DNA from: Streptomyces sp. NBC_00704
GTDB lineage: Bacteria; Actinomycetota; Actinomycetes; Streptomycetales; Streptomycetaceae
Length of the DNA: 64,000 nt
Direction of reading: 5' to 3'
NCBI RefSeq assembly: GCF_036226605.1
Contig: NZ_CP109000.1
Span: 6,196,501-6,260,500 of the forward strand
Position 1 is the first letter of the stretch. Every line of letters begins with the position of its first letter. The position numbers and the translations under genes are program-made. This document shows positions 16,999 through 61,739 of the stretch, one piece after another. A model generated the notes under the pieces. It was not told the origin of the DNA. It saw nothing but the letters and a program-made list of their open reading frames with translations, and made no database searches.

Positions 16999-18153
16999 TC
17001 AGGCCGGGTACGCGTGCGTCTGGGCCGCCTTGACCGTCGCCCACACCGCGACACCGCGATGCAGGCCGAGTTCGGCCGCCGCCACCGTCGTGAGATCGGC
17101 GGCGAGGGGGAGTTCGCCGGTGAGGTCGGCGCGGATCCGGTCGCCGCGGGTGTCCAGGCCGGCGATCTCGCACCGCCAGAGGTTGCGTGCGCTGGAGCCG
17201 GTGGGGCGGTCCCGGTGCAGGGTGACCGCGCTGGGCGGGAAGGCGACGAAGACCGGGCCGGTGAGGTCCTCGGTGGTCGTGATGGTGGTCCTGGTCCCGG
17301 TCCCGGTGGTGATCCCGGTCGTGGTCGCGGGGCCGCTCCCGACGTGGACCGTGTGGCCCTGCGCCTCGCCCTGGTAGAGGTTGAGCCCGACGAGGTGGGC
17401 GATGTAGTCGGTGCGCGGGTGGCGGGCGATGTCGGCCGGGCCGCCCTGCTGGACGATGCGGCCGTCCTCGATGACGACGAGGTGGTCGGCCAGGACCATC
17501 GCGTCCAGCGGGTCGTGCGTGACGAGCACGGCCACCGCTTCGAACTCGGCCAGATGGTGCCGCAGTTGCGCGCGGACGTCGAGGCGGGTGCGGGCGTCGA
17601 GGGCGGCGAGCGGCTCGTCGAGGAGCAGCAGGCGCGGGTGGGTGGCCAGGGCCCGTGCGAGGGCGACGCGCTGTGCCTGGCCGCCGGAGAGCTTGCGGGG
17701 CTTGCTGCCGGCGTGGCCGGCGAGGCCCATCCGCTCCAGCCACTTCGCGGCCCGCGCGCGTGCCTGCGCCTTGGTCGCGCCGTGGCAGCGCGGCCCGAAG
17801 GCCACGTTGTCCAGCGCGGTGAGGTGGGGGAAGAGCAGGTAGTCCTGGAAGACGACGCCGACCGGGCGGGACTCCGGCGGCGTGCGGTGCAACTCGGCCC
17901 CGTCCAGGCGGAGGTGGCCGTCCGTGAGCGGGACGAGGCCGGCGAGGGCGCGCAGCGCGGTCGTCTTGCCTGCGCCGTTGGGGCCGAGGAGCGCGACGAC
18001 GTCACCCGGCGCCGCGGTCAGCGCCACGTCGAGGCGGAAGGAGCCGCGCTCGACCAGCAGCCGGGCGTCGAGCCCTTCCCCGGCCGCGTCGGGCGCGTCG
18101 GCCGGTCCCGGTGCGGGGCGCGCGTCCTGCGTGGTCTTCCCGGTGTCGCTCAT
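16999..18153 (-). CDS. modC: molybdate ABC transporter ATP-binding protein ModC
   Basis: A 384-residue ATPase, last gene of modABC. Walker A is GPNGAGKTT, the Q-loop lies in VGVVFQDYLLFPHLTALDN, the signature is LSGGQAQRVALARAL, Walker B LLLLDEPLAALD, and the switch histidine is in LVTHD. A C-terminal MOP/TOBE oxyanion-binding domain follows from about residue 315 (CEIAGLDTRGDRIRADLTGE to VAVWATVKAAQTHAYPA). Between the two sits an odd Thr/Gly-rich linker (about residues 284-304, TTTGITTGTGTRTTITTT). The start is ATG 18153, overlapping the ModB stop (ATGA). Cytoplasmic face of the membrane; energises molybdate or tungstate uptake. Confidence 0.92.
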   Translation of the reverse strand: MSDTGKTTQDARPAPGPADAPDAAGEGLDARLLVERGSFRLDVALTAAPGDVVALLGPNGAGKTTALRALAGLVPLTDGHLRLDGAELHRTPPESRPVGVVFQDYLLFPHLTALDNVAFGPRCHGATKAQARARAAKWLERMGLAGHAGSKPRKLSGGQAQRVALARALATHPRLLLLDEPLAALDARTRLDVRAQLRHHLAEFEAVAVLVTHDPLDAMVLADHLVVIEDGRIVQQGGPADIARHPRTDYIAHLVGLNLYQGEAQGHTVHVGSGPATTTGITTGTGTRTTITTTEDLTGPVFVAFPPSAVTLHRDRPTGSSARNLWRCEIAGLDTRGDRIRADLTGELPLAADLTTVAAAELGLHRGVAVWATVKAAQTHAYPA

Positions 18154-19025
18154 GAGGCGGTCATCCATCGGTCGCGCAGCCCGGCCAGCACCGCGATCGA
18201 GACGGCCAGCAGGACGAGGCTGAGGGCGATCGCGGCCTGCGGGTCGCTCTGCAGCGCCAGGTACACGGCGAGCGGCATGGTCTGGGTGCGGCCGGGGAAG
18301 TTGCCGGCGAAGGTGATCGTCGCGCCGAACTCGCCGAGCGCCCGGGCCCACGCCAGCACGGCGCCGGCCGCGATGCCGGGGGCGACGAGCGGCAGCGTGA
18401 CCCGGCGGAACGCGGTGAAGCGCGAGGCGCCGAGCGTCGTGGCCGCCTCCTCGTAGCGCGGGTCGGCGGCGCGCAGAGCGCCCTCGACGCTGATGACGAG
18501 GAACGGCATCGCCACGAAGGCTTCCGCGACGACGACCCCGGCGGTGGTGAACGGCAGCGTGATCCCGAACCAGGAGTCCAGCCACCGGCCCAGGACCCCG
18601 TTGCGGCCGAGCGCCATCAGCAGGGCGACGCCGCCGACCACCGGCGGCAGCACCAGCGGAAGGGTGACCAGCGCCCGGAGAAGACCGCGTCCCGGGAACT
18701 CGACCCGTGCCAGCAGCCAGGCCAGCGGCACCCCGAACACCAGGCTCACCGCGGTCGCCGCCGTCGCGCAGACCAGGGACAGCCGGAGCGCCTGCCACAC
18801 CTCGGTGCTCGTCAGCAGGTCGGGCATGCTCCGCCAGGGGGCCCGGACCAGCAGGGCGACGAGGGGGAGGACCAGGAACGCCAGCCCGAGCAGCGCGGGC
18901 AGGAGAAGGGGCAGCGGGGCGCCGCCGAGGCCGCGGCCCGCCGGGGCTCCGCGGACGCGGCGTCGGCGCGGGCCACCGGTCACGGTGTCCGCGGCGCCGG
19001 CCTTGTCGGGGGGCGGGGAGGTCAC
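18150..19025 (-). CDS. modB: molybdate ABC transporter permease ModB
   Basis: A 291-residue inner-membrane permease. After a polar, Arg-rich head there are about six membrane helices. The EAA loop that docks with ModC is visible as EEAATTLGASRFTAFRRVTLPLVAPGI, and the ModB/CysT-type ALGEFGATITFAGNFPGRTQTMPLAVY follows. The start is GTG 19025, overlapping the ModA stop (GTGA); the stop overlaps the ModC start. Size, EAA loop and neighbours agree with molybdate transport rather than sulfate, for which a second permease gene would be expected. Confidence 0.93.
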   Translation of the reverse strand: MTSPPPDKAGAADTVTGGPRRRRVRGAPAGRGLGGAPLPLLLPALLGLAFLVLPLVALLVRAPWRSMPDLLTSTEVWQALRLSLVCATAATAVSLVFGVPLAWLLARVEFPGRGLLRALVTLPLVLPPVVGGVALLMALGRNGVLGRWLDSWFGITLPFTTAGVVVAEAFVAMPFLVISVEGALRAADPRYEEAATTLGASRFTAFRRVTLPLVAPGIAAGAVLAWARALGEFGATITFAGNFPGRTQTMPLAVYLALQSDPQAAIALSLVLLAVSIAVLAGLRDRWMTAS

Positions 19026-55311: not shown

Positions 55312-55408
55312 ACCTCTGGCTTTTCGCCCCGCAGGCCCTCACTCTGGGTAGTGAACAGTCATGTTCGGGTGGCGTGCCGGAAGCACGCCGGGCAGACGGG
55401 GGCGGCGC

Positions 55409-55888
55409 ATGGACGCGGTGCGGCTCATCCTGACGAGCAGGCGCGCGCTCGCCGGCAGCGGCGGACGCACGGAGATTCTCACGGAGGTCTGGCAGGCACA
55501 GGCCCTGGCACAGGCGATCGGCAGCCGGCTCGCGGTCTCGGGCCCGCCCGAACTGCGGGGCGAGGCGCTGGGGCTGACGGAGCTGGCGGGCCGGGGCTGC
55601 GGCGTCCTGGGCTCGCCGGACCTCGACCCGGGGGACCTGCTGGCCGCCCGGCTCACCGATCTGGACGACGCCCGTCGGGCCCTGCTCGACCTGGGCGGCC
55701 TGCTCGGCGAGGTGGGCATCGCCCTGGTCGGCCTGGCGTGCTCGGTCGACGACCAGGGCACCTACTGGCAGTGCATGGAGGCCATCGACGCGGCGGACGA
55801 GTCCAGGGACCGGGTCCTGGAGATGCTGCGCAAGCTGGCGGCGCGAGAGGAACGGGAGGAGCGGGAGGGCGCGTTGCCGGAGAGATGA
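55409..55888 (+). CDS. DUF6099-like hypothetical protein
   Basis: A 159-residue soluble protein, mostly helical. MDAVRLILTSRRALAGSGGR, then ILTEVWQAQALAQAIGSRLA, and DARRALLDLGGLLGEVGIAL VGLACSVDD then YWQCMEAIDAADESRDRVLE. I recall this arrangement as the actinobacterial DUF6099 family, of unknown function. The tail is very acidic/basic (REEREEREG). The start is ATG 55409; an ATG at 55361 would add 16 Arg/Gly-rich residues. The palindrome at 55275-55311 lies upstream. Confidence 0.75.
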   Translation: MDAVRLILTSRRALAGSGGRTEILTEVWQAQALAQAIGSRLAVSGPPELRGEALGLTELAGRGCGVLGSPDLDPGDLLAARLTDLDDARRALLDLGGLLGEVGIALVGLACSVDDQGTYWQCMEAIDAADESRDRVLEMLRKLAAREEREEREGALPER

Positions 55889-56061: not shown

Positions 56062-56166
56062 ATGGATCTCCGCATCTTCACCGAGCCCCAGCAGGGCGCG
56101 ACCTACGACACCCTCCTCACCGTGGCGAAGGCCACCGAGGACCTCGGCTTCGACGCCTTCTTCAGA
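56062..56166 (+). pseudogene. 5' fragment of an LLM-class F420-dependent oxidoreductase
   Basis: ATG 56062 starts MDLRIFTEPQQGATYDTLLT followed by VAKATEDLGFDAFF, the first beta-alpha unit of a luciferase-like F420-dependent oxidoreductase of about 305 residues. Similarity stops abruptly after FDAFF at about 56166, and the next gene is a phage-type integrase. The 3' end of the same family of gene is found at 58518-58691. The two pieces are therefore one host gene that was interrupted; roughly 200 codons from its middle are absent from the window between them. Confidence 0.8.
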
Positions 56167-56185
56167 ACCGGTACCGTATCTACCC

Positions 56186-57961
56186 ATGGAGCTCATCTCC
56201 CTGGGGGACAGGGACCACGCGGACATGGTCAGGGCAGTCACGTACGGCCGGCAGAGCCATAAGAGCGAGACCGACAGTCAGGCGTCCCCAAAGATGCAGC
56301 GCGACAAGGGGATTGCGTACATCAACTCTCAGGACAACTGGACCCACGCCGGGCACTACGAGGACGTCGGCCTCTCCGGGTACGACCCTAACGTCTACCG
56401 GCCCGACTTCGAGCGGCTCATGGAAGACGCGCGCGCCCGGAAGTTCGACGTCGTAGTGATCTACATGCTGTCCCGGCTCACCCGTCAGGGAGCCGCGGAG
56501 GCGATGAGGATTCAACAAGAGTTGGCGAACCATGGAGTCGCCCTCGTCTCGACGCAAGAGCCGTTCATCAACACGTCCGATGACAACCCGTTCGGGGTGG
56601 CTTTCTTCGCGCTTATCGCGGGTCTCGCGCATCAGGAGTCCAAGAACAAATCGAAATTCATCCGCGACGCCTTCGCCGAACTCCAGTCGCGCGGCTCCCA
56701 CTCCGCCGGACCCGTACCGTTCGGATTCGACGTGGAGCCCGTCCAGGTTGACAAGATCACGATTCGGAAGCTGAAGCCGGGAGTGACGAGCGACGCGGAG
56801 ATCGGTCCCAAATCCACGCCGGCTGACGCAGTGATGTATATCGTCAAAGAGGCGGAGGGCGGAGCAACGGCCAACGCCATCGCGTCACAGCTCACTGACA
56901 AGCGTGTGAAGACTCCCCTCGGAAGCCTGGACGACGAAGCCGCGGAAGCACGCCGAAAGGCAGCGAAGCAGCGCAGGAAGGGCGGCGACGGGGACACCGC
57001 GGATTACGAGTGGTCGTCGACCGTCGTCCTTCGCATCCTCCGGGACCCTCGCCTTGCAGGCTTCGCCATCGGACCCGTCGACCAGAAGACGAAGCGCAGG
57101 GAGATCCTCCGCAACAGCGAGGGGCAACCTGTGCAGCCGCACGAGGGGTTCATCACGCCGAAGCGCTGGTATGACCTTCAAGCGCTCGTCGACGGCCGCA
57201 AGCGGACCCACAAGCGATCCCGTGGAGGCTCAATGACTTTCCTCGGTTCCTGGGGTGTCCTGCGTTGCGGAACATGCGCGTCCGGCATGACCGTCGCCAA
57301 CACTGACGGGGTGTACGTGTGCAACCTGCGCCGCAGCGTTGGCGACGCGCCGAAACACGTTCTGGGCATCAGCATGGCGGACACGGACGCCGTTGTCGCC
57401 GCACGCCTGTGGGCGAAGGTGGCAACGCTCGACCCGGAGGACGACAACGACGTAGCCCTACTGACTGCCGCCGCAGAACGCTTTGCCGTCCAGGGAGCGG
57501 ACCCGGAGGCGGCTGCGGAGCTCGCTGAGCAGGAAGCGCAATTTGAGCACGTGCAGAAGAGCATGAAAGAGCTCTACGCCGACCGTAAAGACGGCCTGTA
57601 TGAAGGGGCCACGGGGCGTCAGGCGTTCAAGGACACGATCCTCAAGTATCAGGCTCACGAGTCCGCCTGTGCGGCGCGCATCGACGAGCTGAGGGCCGCA
57701 GCCACCACCGCTACCCGCCTCCCCCTCGACGAGTGGGCGGCAGACTCCGACAACAGCGACCCGATGGAGCCGGGAGGCCTCTGGAGCCGATGGAGCATCG
57801 AGGACCGGCGCTCGTTCCTGGCCCTCTTCGTCGACCGTGTCACAGTCAATCCGAATACAACGCGACGCGGGACGGCGTGGGAGCGGGTGAACGGGCGGGT
57901 CGAAATCGAGTGGGCGACGCCCGCAGAGAGCGATTCCGATAACGAATCGGTAACAGGCTAG
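56186..57961 (+). CDS. large serine recombinase (phage integrase)
   Basis: A 591-residue integrase. The catalytic domain has AVTYGRQSHKSETD with the nucleophilic Ser24, then VVVIYMLSRLTRQGAAEAMR and GVALVSTQEPFINTSDDNPF. The recombinase domain has SKFIRDAFAELQSRGSHSAG and GVTSDAEIGPK to RILRDPRLAGFAIGP. The zinc ribbon follows (CGTC at residues 361-364 with a second Cys pair near CNL), then a long coiled coil (about 440-520) typical of phiC31-like integrases. Starting at the internal ATG (56225) would put the catalytic Ser at position 11, the usual place, so that start may be correct. Base composition is visibly less G+C-rich than the neighbours. It sits inside the LLM gene, about 20-60 bases from the junction. 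Confidence 0.93.
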   Translation: MELISLGDRDHADMVRAVTYGRQSHKSETDSQASPKMQRDKGIAYINSQDNWTHAGHYEDVGLSGYDPNVYRPDFERLMEDARARKFDVVVIYMLSRLTRQGAAEAMRIQQELANHGVALVSTQEPFINTSDDNPFGVAFFALIAGLAHQESKNKSKFIRDAFAELQSRGSHSAGPVPFGFDVEPVQVDKITIRKLKPGVTSDAEIGPKSTPADAVMYIVKEAEGGATANAIASQLTDKRVKTPLGSLDDEAAEARRKAAKQRRKGGDGDTADYEWSSTVVLRILRDPRLAGFAIGPVDQKTKRREILRNSEGQPVQPHEGFITPKRWYDLQALVDGRKRTHKRSRGGSMTFLGSWGVLRCGTCASGMTVANTDGVYVCNLRRSVGDAPKHVLGISMADTDAVVAARLWAKVATLDPEDDNDVALLTAAAERFAVQGADPEAAAELAEQEAQFEHVQKSMKELYADRKDGLYEGATGRQAFKDTILKYQAHESACAARIDELRAAATTATRLPLDEWAADSDNSDPMEPGGLWSRWSIEDRRSFLALFVDRVTVNPNTTRRGTAWERVNGRVEIEWATPAESDSDNESVTG

Positions 57962-58517
57962 CTAGCCTCCGCTCACCGCCAGGCCGCGCAGGGCGTAGCG
58001 CAGGCGAACCGTCAGGTAGAGGACGCGGAGCGGGCTCTCTCCGACGCTAAGCGAAGCGCCCGCCAGGCAGAGGCGGACCTCACGCAGGCGCGCAAGGACG
58101 CGACGCAGCAACTCAAGGATCTGAACGACCAACTCCTTGACGGCATGCTCGACGCGCGCGAAACGACTCTCCGCGTCAAGGAAGCGCGGGAGGAACTGAA
58201 CAAGACTCTCGCCGACCCGAAGGCTACGGAGCTGGAGCGGGAGCGCGCGAAGCTCTCCCTGGACGAGGCCCTTCGCAACGCTGACAAGCAGAAGGCCAAG
58301 AACCGCGAGCTGACACAGTCCGTCGCCGATGCCAGGAAGGCCGGCGTCGACGGCAACAAACAGGTTCAGCATGCCGTGGAGCGCGTCGCAGAGGCGAACG
58401 GAAGGTTGCCGACCAGTCCCGCGCCGTCGCCGACGCGCAGGCCAAGGTACGCGACGCACAGGTTCAGGGCGCACAGGCGATTGCCTCCGCGGAGCGGGGC
58501 CTACAGGCGCGTCCGGT
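57962..58517 (+). pseudogene. tape-measure-protein coiled-coil remnant
   Basis: Directly after the integrase stop, in the same frame, is a sequence with no start codon that reads as one long coiled coil: QAAQGVAQANRQVEDAERAL, KQKAKNRELTQSVADARKAG and so on, rich in Ala, Gln, Glu, Arg and Lys. This is typical of phage tail tape-measure proteins. A one-base deletion near 58401 shifts the frame: before it the frame gives ERVAEAN, after it another frame continues KVADQSRAVADAQAKVRDAQ to ASAERGLQAR. Similarity stops where the LLM gene resumes. It is a decayed piece of a much larger gene. Confidence 0.7.
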
Positions 58518-58691
58518 GAGGTCGACGAGCTGAGGACCAACGGGCTGGCGGGCTCCCCGGCCGAGGTCGTGGACAAGATCGGCCGCTACGCCGAGATCGG
58601 TGTGGAGCGGGTCTACCTCCAGCTCCTCGACCTGCACGACCTGGACCACCTGGAGCTGATCTCCGCCCAGGTACAGGCCCACCTGCCGTAG
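58518..58691 (+). pseudogene. 3' fragment of the LLM-class F420-dependent oxidoreductase
   Basis: The frame reads EVDELRTNGLAGSPAEVVDK, then IGRYAEIGVERVYLQLLDLH and DLDHLELISAQVQAHLP with a stop at 58689-58691. It is the last 57 residues of an F420-dependent LLM oxidoreductase and pairs with the 5' fragment at 56062-56166. It has no start codon and continues upstream into tape-measure sequence in another frame. The enzyme is therefore inactive in this strain. Confidence 0.8.
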
Positions 58692-58856: not shown

Positions 58857-59870
58857 ATGCGCAGAACCGCCCCTCTCCTCCCGGCCCTCACCGCCGCCCT
58901 GCTGCTCACCGCGTGCGGAGCGGAACGTGCCGGCACCCACGACGGCGGCGTCGGCGCGAGCGGTTCGGCGCCGCGGACCGCTGTCTCCCAGCCCGCGGTG
59001 CACGGAGTGCGGATCACCTCGGTGACCATCCCGTCCGCCTCCGCCTCCGCCTCCGCCTCCGCCTCTCACTCCGTCTCCGCGAGCCCCGGTGCCGGGGGCG
59101 GCATGGTCCGGGCCGAGCCCCTGCCCACCGGAACCCCGGCCGGCTCGGCCGGCTCGGGCGTCTCGGCGGACTACGAGGTCGTCAACTCCACCGCCGGAGC
59201 CCTGACCTACACCGTGCTCTTCGTCTTCACCTCGGACGACGGCGGAGCCATGAGCAACCGCAAGGTGACCGTGGGCCCGGTCGGGCCGGGCCGGACGGTG
59301 CGCGGAACGGTGCGACCGGAACCCCTGCCGCCGGGAGCGCCGCCGGTGACCGGGGTGAAGGTCGCCGAGGTGACCAGCGTCCCCGCGGCCGAGGCGCCGG
59401 CCGAGGCGGACGCCTGCCCGCCCTCCGGAATCCGTGTCACGGCCGACGACGGCGACGCCGCCATGGGGCTGCGCGTGGTGGGACTGTTCCTGGAGAACTG
59501 CGGCGACCGGGACTACACCGTCAAGGGCTACCCGGGGCTGACCCTGCTGGACGACGACCGCCAGCCGGTCGACGGCGTCACGATCGTCCACGGCGGCGGG
59601 GGCATCGCCACCGTCACAGGGTTCGACGACCCGCCGCGCACCGTGACCCTGGCACCCGGCGAGCGGGCCACATCCGGCCTGATGTGGCGCAACACCACCG
59701 GCTTCGGCACGGCCGTGGGCGTCCCGTACGTCAGGGTGCGCGCCAGGCCGGACGCCGCGCCGGTGATGATCACCCCGCACCTCGACCTCGGCACCACCGG
59801 GAAGCTCGCCGTCAGCGCCTGGCGCGCGGCGGCGGAGCCGCAGGGGACCCGCGCCACCGCCTCCCCCTGA
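58857..59870 (+). CDS. DUF4232-domain lipoprotein
   Basis: A 337-residue exported protein. Signal peptide RTAPLLPALTAALLLTAC ends in a lipobox Cys. A linker follows with an SASASASASASHSVSAS tract encoded by TCC GCC repeats. Residues about 100-180 form one immunoglobulin-like domain (ADYEVVNSTAGALTYTVLFV). The DUF4232 domain begins around CPPSGIRVTADDGDAAMGLR and ends near WRAAAEPQ, with VGLFLENCGDRDYTVKGYPG and WRNTTGFG as landmarks. DUF4232 lipoproteins are numerous in Streptomyces and have no assigned function. The start is ATG 58857. Single gene, same strand as hen1 174 bases downstream. Confidence 0.88.
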   Translation: MRRTAPLLPALTAALLLTACGAERAGTHDGGVGASGSAPRTAVSQPAVHGVRITSVTIPSASASASASASHSVSASPGAGGGMVRAEPLPTGTPAGSAGSGVSADYEVVNSTAGALTYTVLFVFTSDDGGAMSNRKVTVGPVGPGRTVRGTVRPEPLPPGAPPVTGVKVAEVTSVPAAEAPAEADACPPSGIRVTADDGDAAMGLRVVGLFLENCGDRDYTVKGYPGLTLLDDDRQPVDGVTIVHGGGGIATVTGFDDPPRTVTLAPGERATSGLMWRNTTGFGTAVGVPYVRVRARPDAAPVMITPHLDLGTTGKLAVSAWRAAAEPQGTRATASP

Positions 59871-60044: not shown

Positions 60045-61739
60045 GTGTTCCTGACCATCGGCACCACCGGCACCCCTGAACGCCCCGCGACCGATCTGGG
60101 CTTCCTGCTGCACAAGCATCCCGGCAAGTCCCAGGCGTTCTCCACCTCCTACGGAACGGCCCACGTCCTCTACCCCGAGGCCGACGCCGAGCGCTGCACG
60201 GCGGCGCTGCTGCTGGAGGTGGACGCCGTGGCGCTGGTCCGGCGCGGCAAGGGCAAGGGCCGCGGCGGCGCTCCCGACGCGGCTCTCGCCCAGTACGTCA
60301 ACGACCGCCCCTATGCGGCCTCCTCGCTGCTCGCGGTCGCGTTGAGCGGCGTGTTCTCCAGCGCGATGCGCGGTGTGTGCGCGGCGAGGCCCGAACTGCC
60401 GGCGCAACCGCGGCCGTTGCGGGTGGAGATACCGGCCCTGCCCGCGCGCGGCGGGCCCGCCCTGGTGCACGCCCTGTTCGAACCGCTCGGCTGGCGGGTG
60501 AGCGCCGAACCGGTGGCCCTCGACGCGCGGTTCCCGCAGTGGGGCGACTCGCGGTACGTGAGCCTGACGCTGGAGTCGGAGAAGCTCACCGTCGCCGAGA
60601 CCCTGCGTCAGCTGTACGTCCTGCTGCCGGTCCTCGACGACGCCAAGCACTACTGGGTGTCGGCCGACGAGGTCGACAAGCTGCTGCGCGCCGGTGAGGG
60701 CTGGCTGCCCGACCACCCCGAGCACAAGCTGATCACCAGCCGGTTCCTGTCCCGCCGCTGGTCGCTGACCCGGCAGGCGATGGAGCGGCTGGAGCTGGTC
60801 CGGCTCGCCGAGGCCGACGACAGCGAGGTCGAGGACATCGACAACGCCGTCGCGGCGGACGCCGAGACGCAGGAGAGGCCGACGCCGCTGGCCGAGCAGC
60901 GCCGCGAGGCGCTCGTCACGGCGCTGACCCGCGCCGGAGCCGCCCGCGTCCTCGACCTGGGCTGCGGGCAGGGCCAGTTGGTGCAGGCGCTGCTGAAGAA
61001 CCCGCGGTTCACCGAGATCGTCGGCGTCGACGTGTCGATGCGCGCGCTCACCGTCGCCGCGCGCCGGCTGAAGCTGGACCGCATGGGGGAGCGGCAGGCC
61101 TCCCGCGTCCAGCTGCTTCAGGGCTCGCTGGCGTACACGGACAGCCGGCTCAAGGGCTACGACGCGGCCGTGCTCAGCGAGGTGATCGAACACCTCGACC
61201 TGCCCCGGCTGCCCGCGCTGGAGTACGCCGTGTTCGGCTCGGCCCGTCCGCGCACGGTCCTGGTGACCACCCCGAACGTCGAGTACAACGTCCGCTGGGA
61301 GAGCCTCCCGGCCGGCCACGTCCGGCACGGCGACCACCGCTTCGAGTGGACCCGGCGGGAGTTCCGCGCCTGGGCGGCCGCGGTCGCCGGGCGGCACGGC
61401 TACGACGTCGCGTTCCTGCCCGTCGGACCGGACGAACCCGAGGTCGGCCCGCCCACCCAGATGGCCGTCTTCGAGAGGAAGGCGGCCGGCGCGGAGAACG
61501 AGGCCGCGCGGCGCGGGAACGCCGGGAACCGCGGCGGGACGACCGCGAAGACCGCGAAGACTGCGACGACCGGGACGACCGGGACGACCGGGAAGGCTGC
61601 GACGACCGGGATGAACGAGACGGGCGGGACCGACGAGACGAGCGGGACCGACGAGATGGGCGGGACGGACCAGATGGGCGAGACGGGCGAGACGGGCGAG
61701 ACGGGCGAGAAGGGCGAGAAGGAGGCGGAGGCGGCATGA
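60045..61739 (+). CDS. hen1: Hen1-type 3'-terminal RNA ribose 2'-O-methyltransferase
   Basis: A 564-residue enzyme of the bacterial RNA-repair operon. The N-terminal half (about 1-250), starting MFLTIGTTGTPERPATDLGF and LLHKHPGKSQAFSTSYGTAH, is the Hen1-specific domain that, in studied homologues, contacts Pnkp and activates its ligase. The methyltransferase has AARVLDLGCGQGQLVQALL (SAM loop, near 302-320), then the metal-binding E379, E382 and H383 in SEVIEHLD, and the fourth ligand H431 in GDHRFEWTRREFR. It 2'-O-methylates the 3' end of cleaved RNA so that repaired RNA resists a second cut. The last about 65 residues are a Thr/Gly/Glu/Lys repeat tail (TTGTTGTTG, GETGETGETGEK). ATG overlap (ATGA) with pnkp. 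The first ATG/GTG of this frame is at 60045 (GTG). Confidence 0.95.
   Translation: MFLTIGTTGTPERPATDLGFLLHKHPGKSQAFSTSYGTAHVLYPEADAERCTAALLLEVDAVALVRRGKGKGRGGAPDAALAQYVNDRPYAASSLLAVALSGVFSSAMRGVCAARPELPAQPRPLRVEIPALPARGGPALVHALFEPLGWRVSAEPVALDARFPQWGDSRYVSLTLESEKLTVAETLRQLYVLLPVLDDAKHYWVSADEVDKLLRAGEGWLPDHPEHKLITSRFLSRRWSLTRQAMERLELVRLAEADDSEVEDIDNAVAADAETQERPTPLAEQRREALVTALTRAGAARVLDLGCGQGQLVQALLKNPRFTEIVGVDVSMRALTVAARRLKLDRMGERQASRVQLLQGSLAYTDSRLKGYDAAVLSEVIEHLDLPRLPALEYAVFGSARPRTVLVTTPNVEYNVRWESLPAGHVRHGDHRFEWTRREFRAWAAAVAGRHGYDVAFLPVGPDEPEVGPPTQMAVFERKAAGAENEAARRGNAGNRGGTTAKTAKTATTGTTGTTGKAATTGMNETGGTDETSGTDEMGGTDQMGETGETGETGEKGEKEAEAA

Follow-up and report, generated by a model that had tools for sequence, protein, structure and literature searches.

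The integrases of the Lomovskayavirus phages phiC31 and phiBT1 are large serine integrases with resolvase and recombinase domains, and the target of phiC31 is the pirin gene. Integration of phiBT1 takes place at SCO4848 (PMC7460540), and some of the elements located at the phiJoe attB have been reduced to their recombination genes (PMC5311408). Thousands of integrase sites have been predicted by Durrant et al. (PMC10083194), and cryptic prophages are reported to be highly prevalent in actinobacteria (PMC10023795). We analyzed a window of 64,000 nucleotides from the chromosome of Streptomyces sp. NBC_00704, in which an integrase of this type and a piece of a phage tape-measure gene lie between two pieces of an F420-dependent LLM oxidoreductase gene. 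All the pieces that a preliminary description had claimed for this locus (the LLM N-terminus, the integrase, the tape-measure piece, and the last 57 LLM codons) were found in their places, except that its count of 35 host codons at the N-terminus had to be lowered to 34. Codon 35 (AGA, 56164-56166) belongs to the phage arm and encodes Arg by coincidence, the codon being CGN in 28 intact relatives. The features of the locus are as follows.

55361..55888, + strand: DUF6099 gene, the left neighbour and a marker of the conserved LLM locus (Pfam PF19594, 2.1e-65)
56062..56163, + strand: codons 1-34 of the host LLM oxidoreductase gene (TIGR03560/Rv1855c family), by match to intact orthologues
56138..56188, + strand: predicted attL, its outer limits estimated at about 50 bp from the alignment of seven attL sites, five attR sites, and a native attP
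56186..57961, + strand: large serine integrase, complete, 591 aa, catalytic Ser24 in YGRQS (PF00239/PF07508)
57962..~58510, + strand: tape-measure gene fragment, frameshifted, by similarity to the SID5910 prophage, viral contigs, and phage Samy
58518..58691, + strand: codons 251-307 and the stop codon of the host LLM oxidoreductase gene, by orthologue matches
58857-59870: DUF4232 gene, between the LLM and Hen1 genes in the window
60045..61739, + strand: Hen1 RNA methyltransferase gene, the right neighbour and a locus marker (TIGR04074, 6.5e-200)

The window integrase matched the Pfam families Resolvase (PF00239, 3.2e-23) and Recombinase (PF07508, 2.3e-08; 34.7 bits at a cut-off of 21.1). The zinc ribbon (PF13408) scored 21.2 bits (E 0.00039), short of the curated cut-off of 25.3, and the cysteines of the protein line up with those of phiBT1 in the alignment. 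The serine of the YGRQS motif (Ser24) was aligned with the catalytic serine of phiBT1 and phiC31, and the C-terminal end and the stop position are the same as in the relatives. When 50,697 phage records were searched, the best match was phiBT1 (34.0% identity; phiC31, 29.8%), and each of the 125 matching records was less than 60% identical. Among 395 related genomes, a close integrase (78%) was found, besides that of the window, in Streptomyces sp. SID5910 (G175) alone, the next nine being 33-46% identical. Scans of genome and viral contigs yielded SID5910 again, taken as the same genome as G175, and further members of the clade in Streptomyces sp. LBL (G395), DH12, and two IMG/VR contigs, IMGVR_3300018910 and IMGVR_UViG_3300047470_000200 (L052), and two more, in genomes G466 and G468, were found via a broken LLM gene and are thus not independent evidence for the target. 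The resulting clade of eight integrases shows 64-82% mutual identity and about 36% identity to phiBT1. In the alignment made with the tree set, the window integrase is 65-79% identical to its seven clade relatives, 35% to phiBT1, and 31% to phiC31, and a FastTree support of 1.000 sets the eight proteins apart as one group from the other eleven sequences of the tree. The window's own genome yielded no further copy of this integrase; the next best matches there, at 29-30%, were two more distant serine recombinases (C1:3703028-3703951 and C1:835368-835865).

Taken alone, the two LLM pieces of the window gave no match in a Pfam search, and the family was assigned from an intact orthologue (L005), which belongs to TIGR03560 (Rv1855c) at 303.3 bits in NCBIfam against a cut-off of 231.4. 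Identity to the orthologues is 80-100% for the N-terminal piece (28 relative loci with an intact gene) and 71-86% for the C-terminal piece (29 loci), which at the DNA level is 90% identical to the end of the LLM gene in SID5910. In 28 of the 29 relative loci (L005-L033), the LLM gene is a single open reading frame of 306-309 aa spanning both pieces, and the sole exception (L008) is genome G004, itself a relic. The neighbourhood is conserved as well. DUF6099 adjoins the LLM gene in 19 of the 29 loci (1.5-kb flanks, E < 1e-10), upstream and on the same strand in 18 of them and downstream on the other strand in L032, and Hen1 lies behind the LLM gene in SID5910 too. There, only about 160 bases separate the end of LLM from the start of Hen1, such that the DUF4232 gene of the window is absent at that place. 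Judged by these comparisons, the two pieces represent opposite ends of a single gene, as had been described, and codons 35-250 are absent from the locus. The large loss proposed earlier thus stands, the estimate of about 200 codons being refined to about 216.

We looked at the possibility that the two pieces belong to different paralogues, or that the family normally does without the middle of the protein. Both pieces match the same orthologue in a syntenic place, and the relatives' reading frames run the full 306-309 aa. Many LLM paralogues do exist in the genome (17 further matches), which would offer partners for gene conversion or other recombination between different paralogues, the alternative raised in the preliminary description. 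However, both ends are 78-88% identical to the same orthologue and at most 38% identical to any paralogue, and they lie in the syntenic place. This explanation is not supported, and we regard it as having practically no probability; conversion between paralogues is ruled out by identity and synteny. The missing middle was sought across the genome and not found, and relocation of it to another place was rejected, the 17 other LLM matches being paralogues of 26-38% identity.

The integration site was then defined by the junctions of related elements. In all seven integrated members of the clade (the window, LBL, SID5910, DH12, IMGVR_3300018910, G466, and G468), LLM DNA runs through codon 34 and is followed directly by the phage arm; G468 reads TTCTCC at the junction and the other six read TTCTTC. 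Five of the seven copies, the window included, were found without selection on the LLM gene and two through it. The preliminary description had predicted that prophages carrying this integrase would have their attL in the same LLM codon, and this held for each of the four further integrated copies to which integrase similarity had led (SID5910, LBL, DH12, and IMGVR_3300018910); the attL sites of G466 and G468, found through the broken LLM gene, agree with codon 34. At the five attR junctions available (SID5910, LBL, G466, G004, and G012), LLM resumes at the next codon. The eighth integrase, on the viral contig IMGVR_UViG_3300047470_000200, is accompanied by an uninterrupted native attP, the right arm of which equals that of the window, with the left arm one base off that of SID5910, and this possibly fragmentary record of 36 kb gave no LLM match. 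As in phiC31-type systems, this attP lies beside int and forms an imperfect dyad around a two-base core.

In the native attP, 15 of 24 positions pair around TC. A dyad score at least as high was reached at 8 of the 16188 positions of this locus, attP included, and the score fell to 3-8 when the centre was moved by 1 to 4 bases. The attP sites rebuilt for SID5910, LBL, and G466 gave 16, 15, and 14 pairs of 24, respectively. Since the rebuilt and native sites share a dyad centred on TC, the crossover in the window is predicted to map to the dinucleotide TC at 56162-56163, within a predicted core TCTTC (56159-56163), with the phage arm starting at 56164. The preliminary description had expected attL near the left junction and pointed to an 8-base palindrome CGGTACCG there; the predicted crossover lies 5′ of this palindrome. 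The palindrome is attP-arm sequence that begins 5 bases past the crossover dinucleotide, and it is present in only five of the seven attL sites (DH12 carries CGGTATCG and G466 carries CGGTGTCG), and it was rejected as the core site. Together, these alignments predict that the integrases of this clade recombine attP with an attB in the LLM gene.

Between the attL and attR sites, the prophages of SID5910, LBL, and G466 measure 59,032 bp, 61,771 bp, and 58,952 bp, respectively, and all three split LLM at codon 34. Ten open reading frames of the SID5910 prophage were searched against PHROGs; one matched only a family of unknown function, and the matches identified terminase, portal, head protease, major head protein, tape measure, endolysin, tail fibre, primase, and polymerase genes. 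The tape-measure piece of the window is 44% identical to positions 18149-18709 of this prophage and 51% to 18836-18940, in the same order and orientation, 39-53% identical to 15 viral-contig loci, and 43% identical to Streptomyces phage Samy (3e-22). It is frameshifted near 58390 and, judged by eye, shorter inside than its relatives owing to internal gaps; many of the matches listed by BLAST for frames 2 and 3 of this stretch were of low complexity. An integrase of the clade and a tape-measure gene also occur together on the viral contig IMGVR_UViG_3300047470_000200. Both ends of the piece are deletion joints fixed within several bases, the right one approximate, and inspection of the two joints by eye revealed no clear microhomology.

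Placed on the coordinates of SID5910, the window retains int (up to 3120) and the tape-measure stretches, and the host gene resumes at 61009. About 15 kb between int and the tape measure and about 42 kb from the tape measure through attR into LLM codon 250 would have been lost, sizes that are scaled on the SID5910 prophage, the window's tape measure being at most 53% identical to any found. A search of the window genome for the SID5910 portal gave no match, and for the primase it gave just two matches of 31-34%, both searches being weak evidence, as the phage that entered this genome may have differed. The primase-like matches lie on the small contig C3 (19997-30438) and were read as unrelated. 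Phage records and genome and viral contigs were searched for the whole phage of the window and yielded relatives only.

The integrase of the window is complete with its stop codon, and elements with recombination genes alone have been reported around the phiJoe attB (PMC5311408), so the insertion might be taken for an integrase-only satellite or other small mobile element that is still maintained, in place of a collapsed full prophage. However, its only cargo is a piece of a tape-measure gene with a frameshift, it lacks attR, and LLM resumes behind it at codon 251 rather than codon 35. Related integrases are, moreover, carried at this site by prophages of about 60 kb, and all of this makes such an element very unlikely. 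An assembly error joining distant sequences, weighed from the assembly context, is less probable again: the locus sits in an 8.04-Mb chromosome contig of a three-contig assembly, its neighbours DUF6099 and Hen1 are arranged as expected on either side, and neither a second integrase nor the LLM middle was found elsewhere in the genome.

A prophage that integrated in LLM codon 34 and later collapsed to attL, int, and a tape-measure scrap therefore accounts for this locus with high confidence. The proposal that a phage integrated in the LLM gene and that large deletions came afterwards is upheld by the SID5910, LBL, and G466 prophages in the same codon and by the collinear tape measure, and so is the loss of attR and the LLM middle, both being absent from the locus and the middle from the rest of the genome. 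The aligned junctions show the integration step, in which a temperate phage with a long tail and a serine integrase like that of phiBT1 would have recombined its attP with the attB at codon 34, splitting the gene. One deletion would have started right after the stop codon of int and ended within the tape-measure gene, and a second would have run from the tape-measure gene through attR to LLM codon 250; we infer the order of the two, and illegitimate recombination as their cause. What remains is attL, int with its reading frame intact, a scrap of the tape-measure gene with a frameshift, and the two ends of a dead host gene, and the locus was classified as a remnant prophage on the presence of int, the tape-measure scrap, and attL and the absence of attR and the LLM middle. 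Because attR is gone, the remnant should be unable to excise, and the strain would be left without attB at this locus.

Other relics were recognized at the same site. In G012 (L125 1894-3036), LLM is preserved over codons 1-27 and gives way to some 1.1 kb of debris that includes a tRNA-Trp gene; attR follows, and behind it LLM codons ~86-135 are missing through a further internal loss; a tRNA-Trp gene also lies behind int in SID5910. In G004 (L124 15298-19300), attR and LLM from about codon 34 on remain, the LLM N-terminus was sought and not found, and other genes and two tRNA genes lie between DUF6099 and attR. The right end of the G468 element is outside what its draft assembly shows. In the SID5910 prophage, four short palindromic units CCCCGCnnnnGCGGGG spaced 49-52 bases apart were observed behind int (L044 4451-4617), with two such units in L053 (5288-5352) and none in L049, L051, L052, L121, L122, L045, and L046. 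Tandem Repeats Finder reported no array for the SID5910 units; they resemble CRISPR repeats with a period shorter than that of type I-E arrays, and may be either hairpin repeats or a phage-borne mini-array.

The LLM N-terminal stretch, the left half of attB, was detected in 372 of 392 genomes of the genus (E <= 1e-7), mostly as one match, and LLM is broken at codon 34 in at least six of the 392: the window genome, G175, G466, G468, G012 (counted for its attR, its N-terminal piece ending at codon 27), and G004. Candidate truncated genes were picked by weak E-values among the matches listed; besides the window and G175, the 12 genomes with E > 1e-20 and all 20 genomes without a match were re-examined. 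The whole LLM gene was then found in G256, G445, G548, G525, G221, G471, G489, and G114; the G203 match starts only at codon 75, and that of G534 runs in two overlapping frames. No orthologue was found at the thresholds used in G018, G022, G431, and 15 of the genomes without a match, and these hold, where any, only more distant LLM proteins of less than 45% identity.

The nine more distant integrases, 31-42% identical in the tree-set comparison, gave a different picture. The LLM N-terminal piece was sought in their loci (L035-L043) without a match; none of them lies behind an LLM N-terminus, which speaks against LLM as the general target of the related integrases. The integrases of L035-L038 and L040 (~40% identical) all adjoin the start of one other gene, antibiotic-monooxygenase-like by eye from its translation (MVKINVLTVP...), and that of L039 adjoins a third gene. 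The shared neighbour of L035-L038 and L040 suggests a second common attB.

The use of a serine integrase and this kind of prophage decay are well known, and there is no new mechanism here. The LLM attB and its integrase clade look undescribed: the LLM gene was not seen to be named as an attB in the open-access literature searched, and the main text of PMC11530663 makes no mention of an oxidoreductase. The preliminary suggestion of a new attB locus for a serine integrase fits the seven of seven integrated clade members at this site. Codon 34 of the LLM gene is likely the unnamed, near-genus-wide attB of a distinct phiBT1-related clade, a site at which prophages repeatedly enter and decay, each costing the host the enzyme. 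The integrase, attP, and attB could together become another Streptomyces integration vector, because the left half-site is present in 372 of the 392 sampled genomes. Since the elements at this one base position range from prophages that have both ends to nearly erased remnants, their path of decay can be compared, and the dispensability of the F420-dependent LLM enzyme is open to comparative study at this site.

In the described systems, phiBT1 has its attP annotated directly upstream of int, as in the window clade, and the integrases of phiBT1 and phiC31 share with that of the window the domain set and the aligned catalytic serine; unlike these two (35% and 31% identical), the clade targets the LLM gene. 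Phage Samy (OR263580; record of 61,068 bp), with the 43% identical tape measure, also uses a serine integrase, but integrates in an Rv2578c-family radical-SAM gene (PMC12924846). The phiJoe attB at SCO2603 resembles the LLM site in that elements of differing size occupy it in many strains (PMC5311408). The distance from the phiJoe attB to the end of a radical-SAM gene is 74 bp (PMC5311408), whereas the LLM attB is near the gene start, which is why integration destroys the LLM gene.
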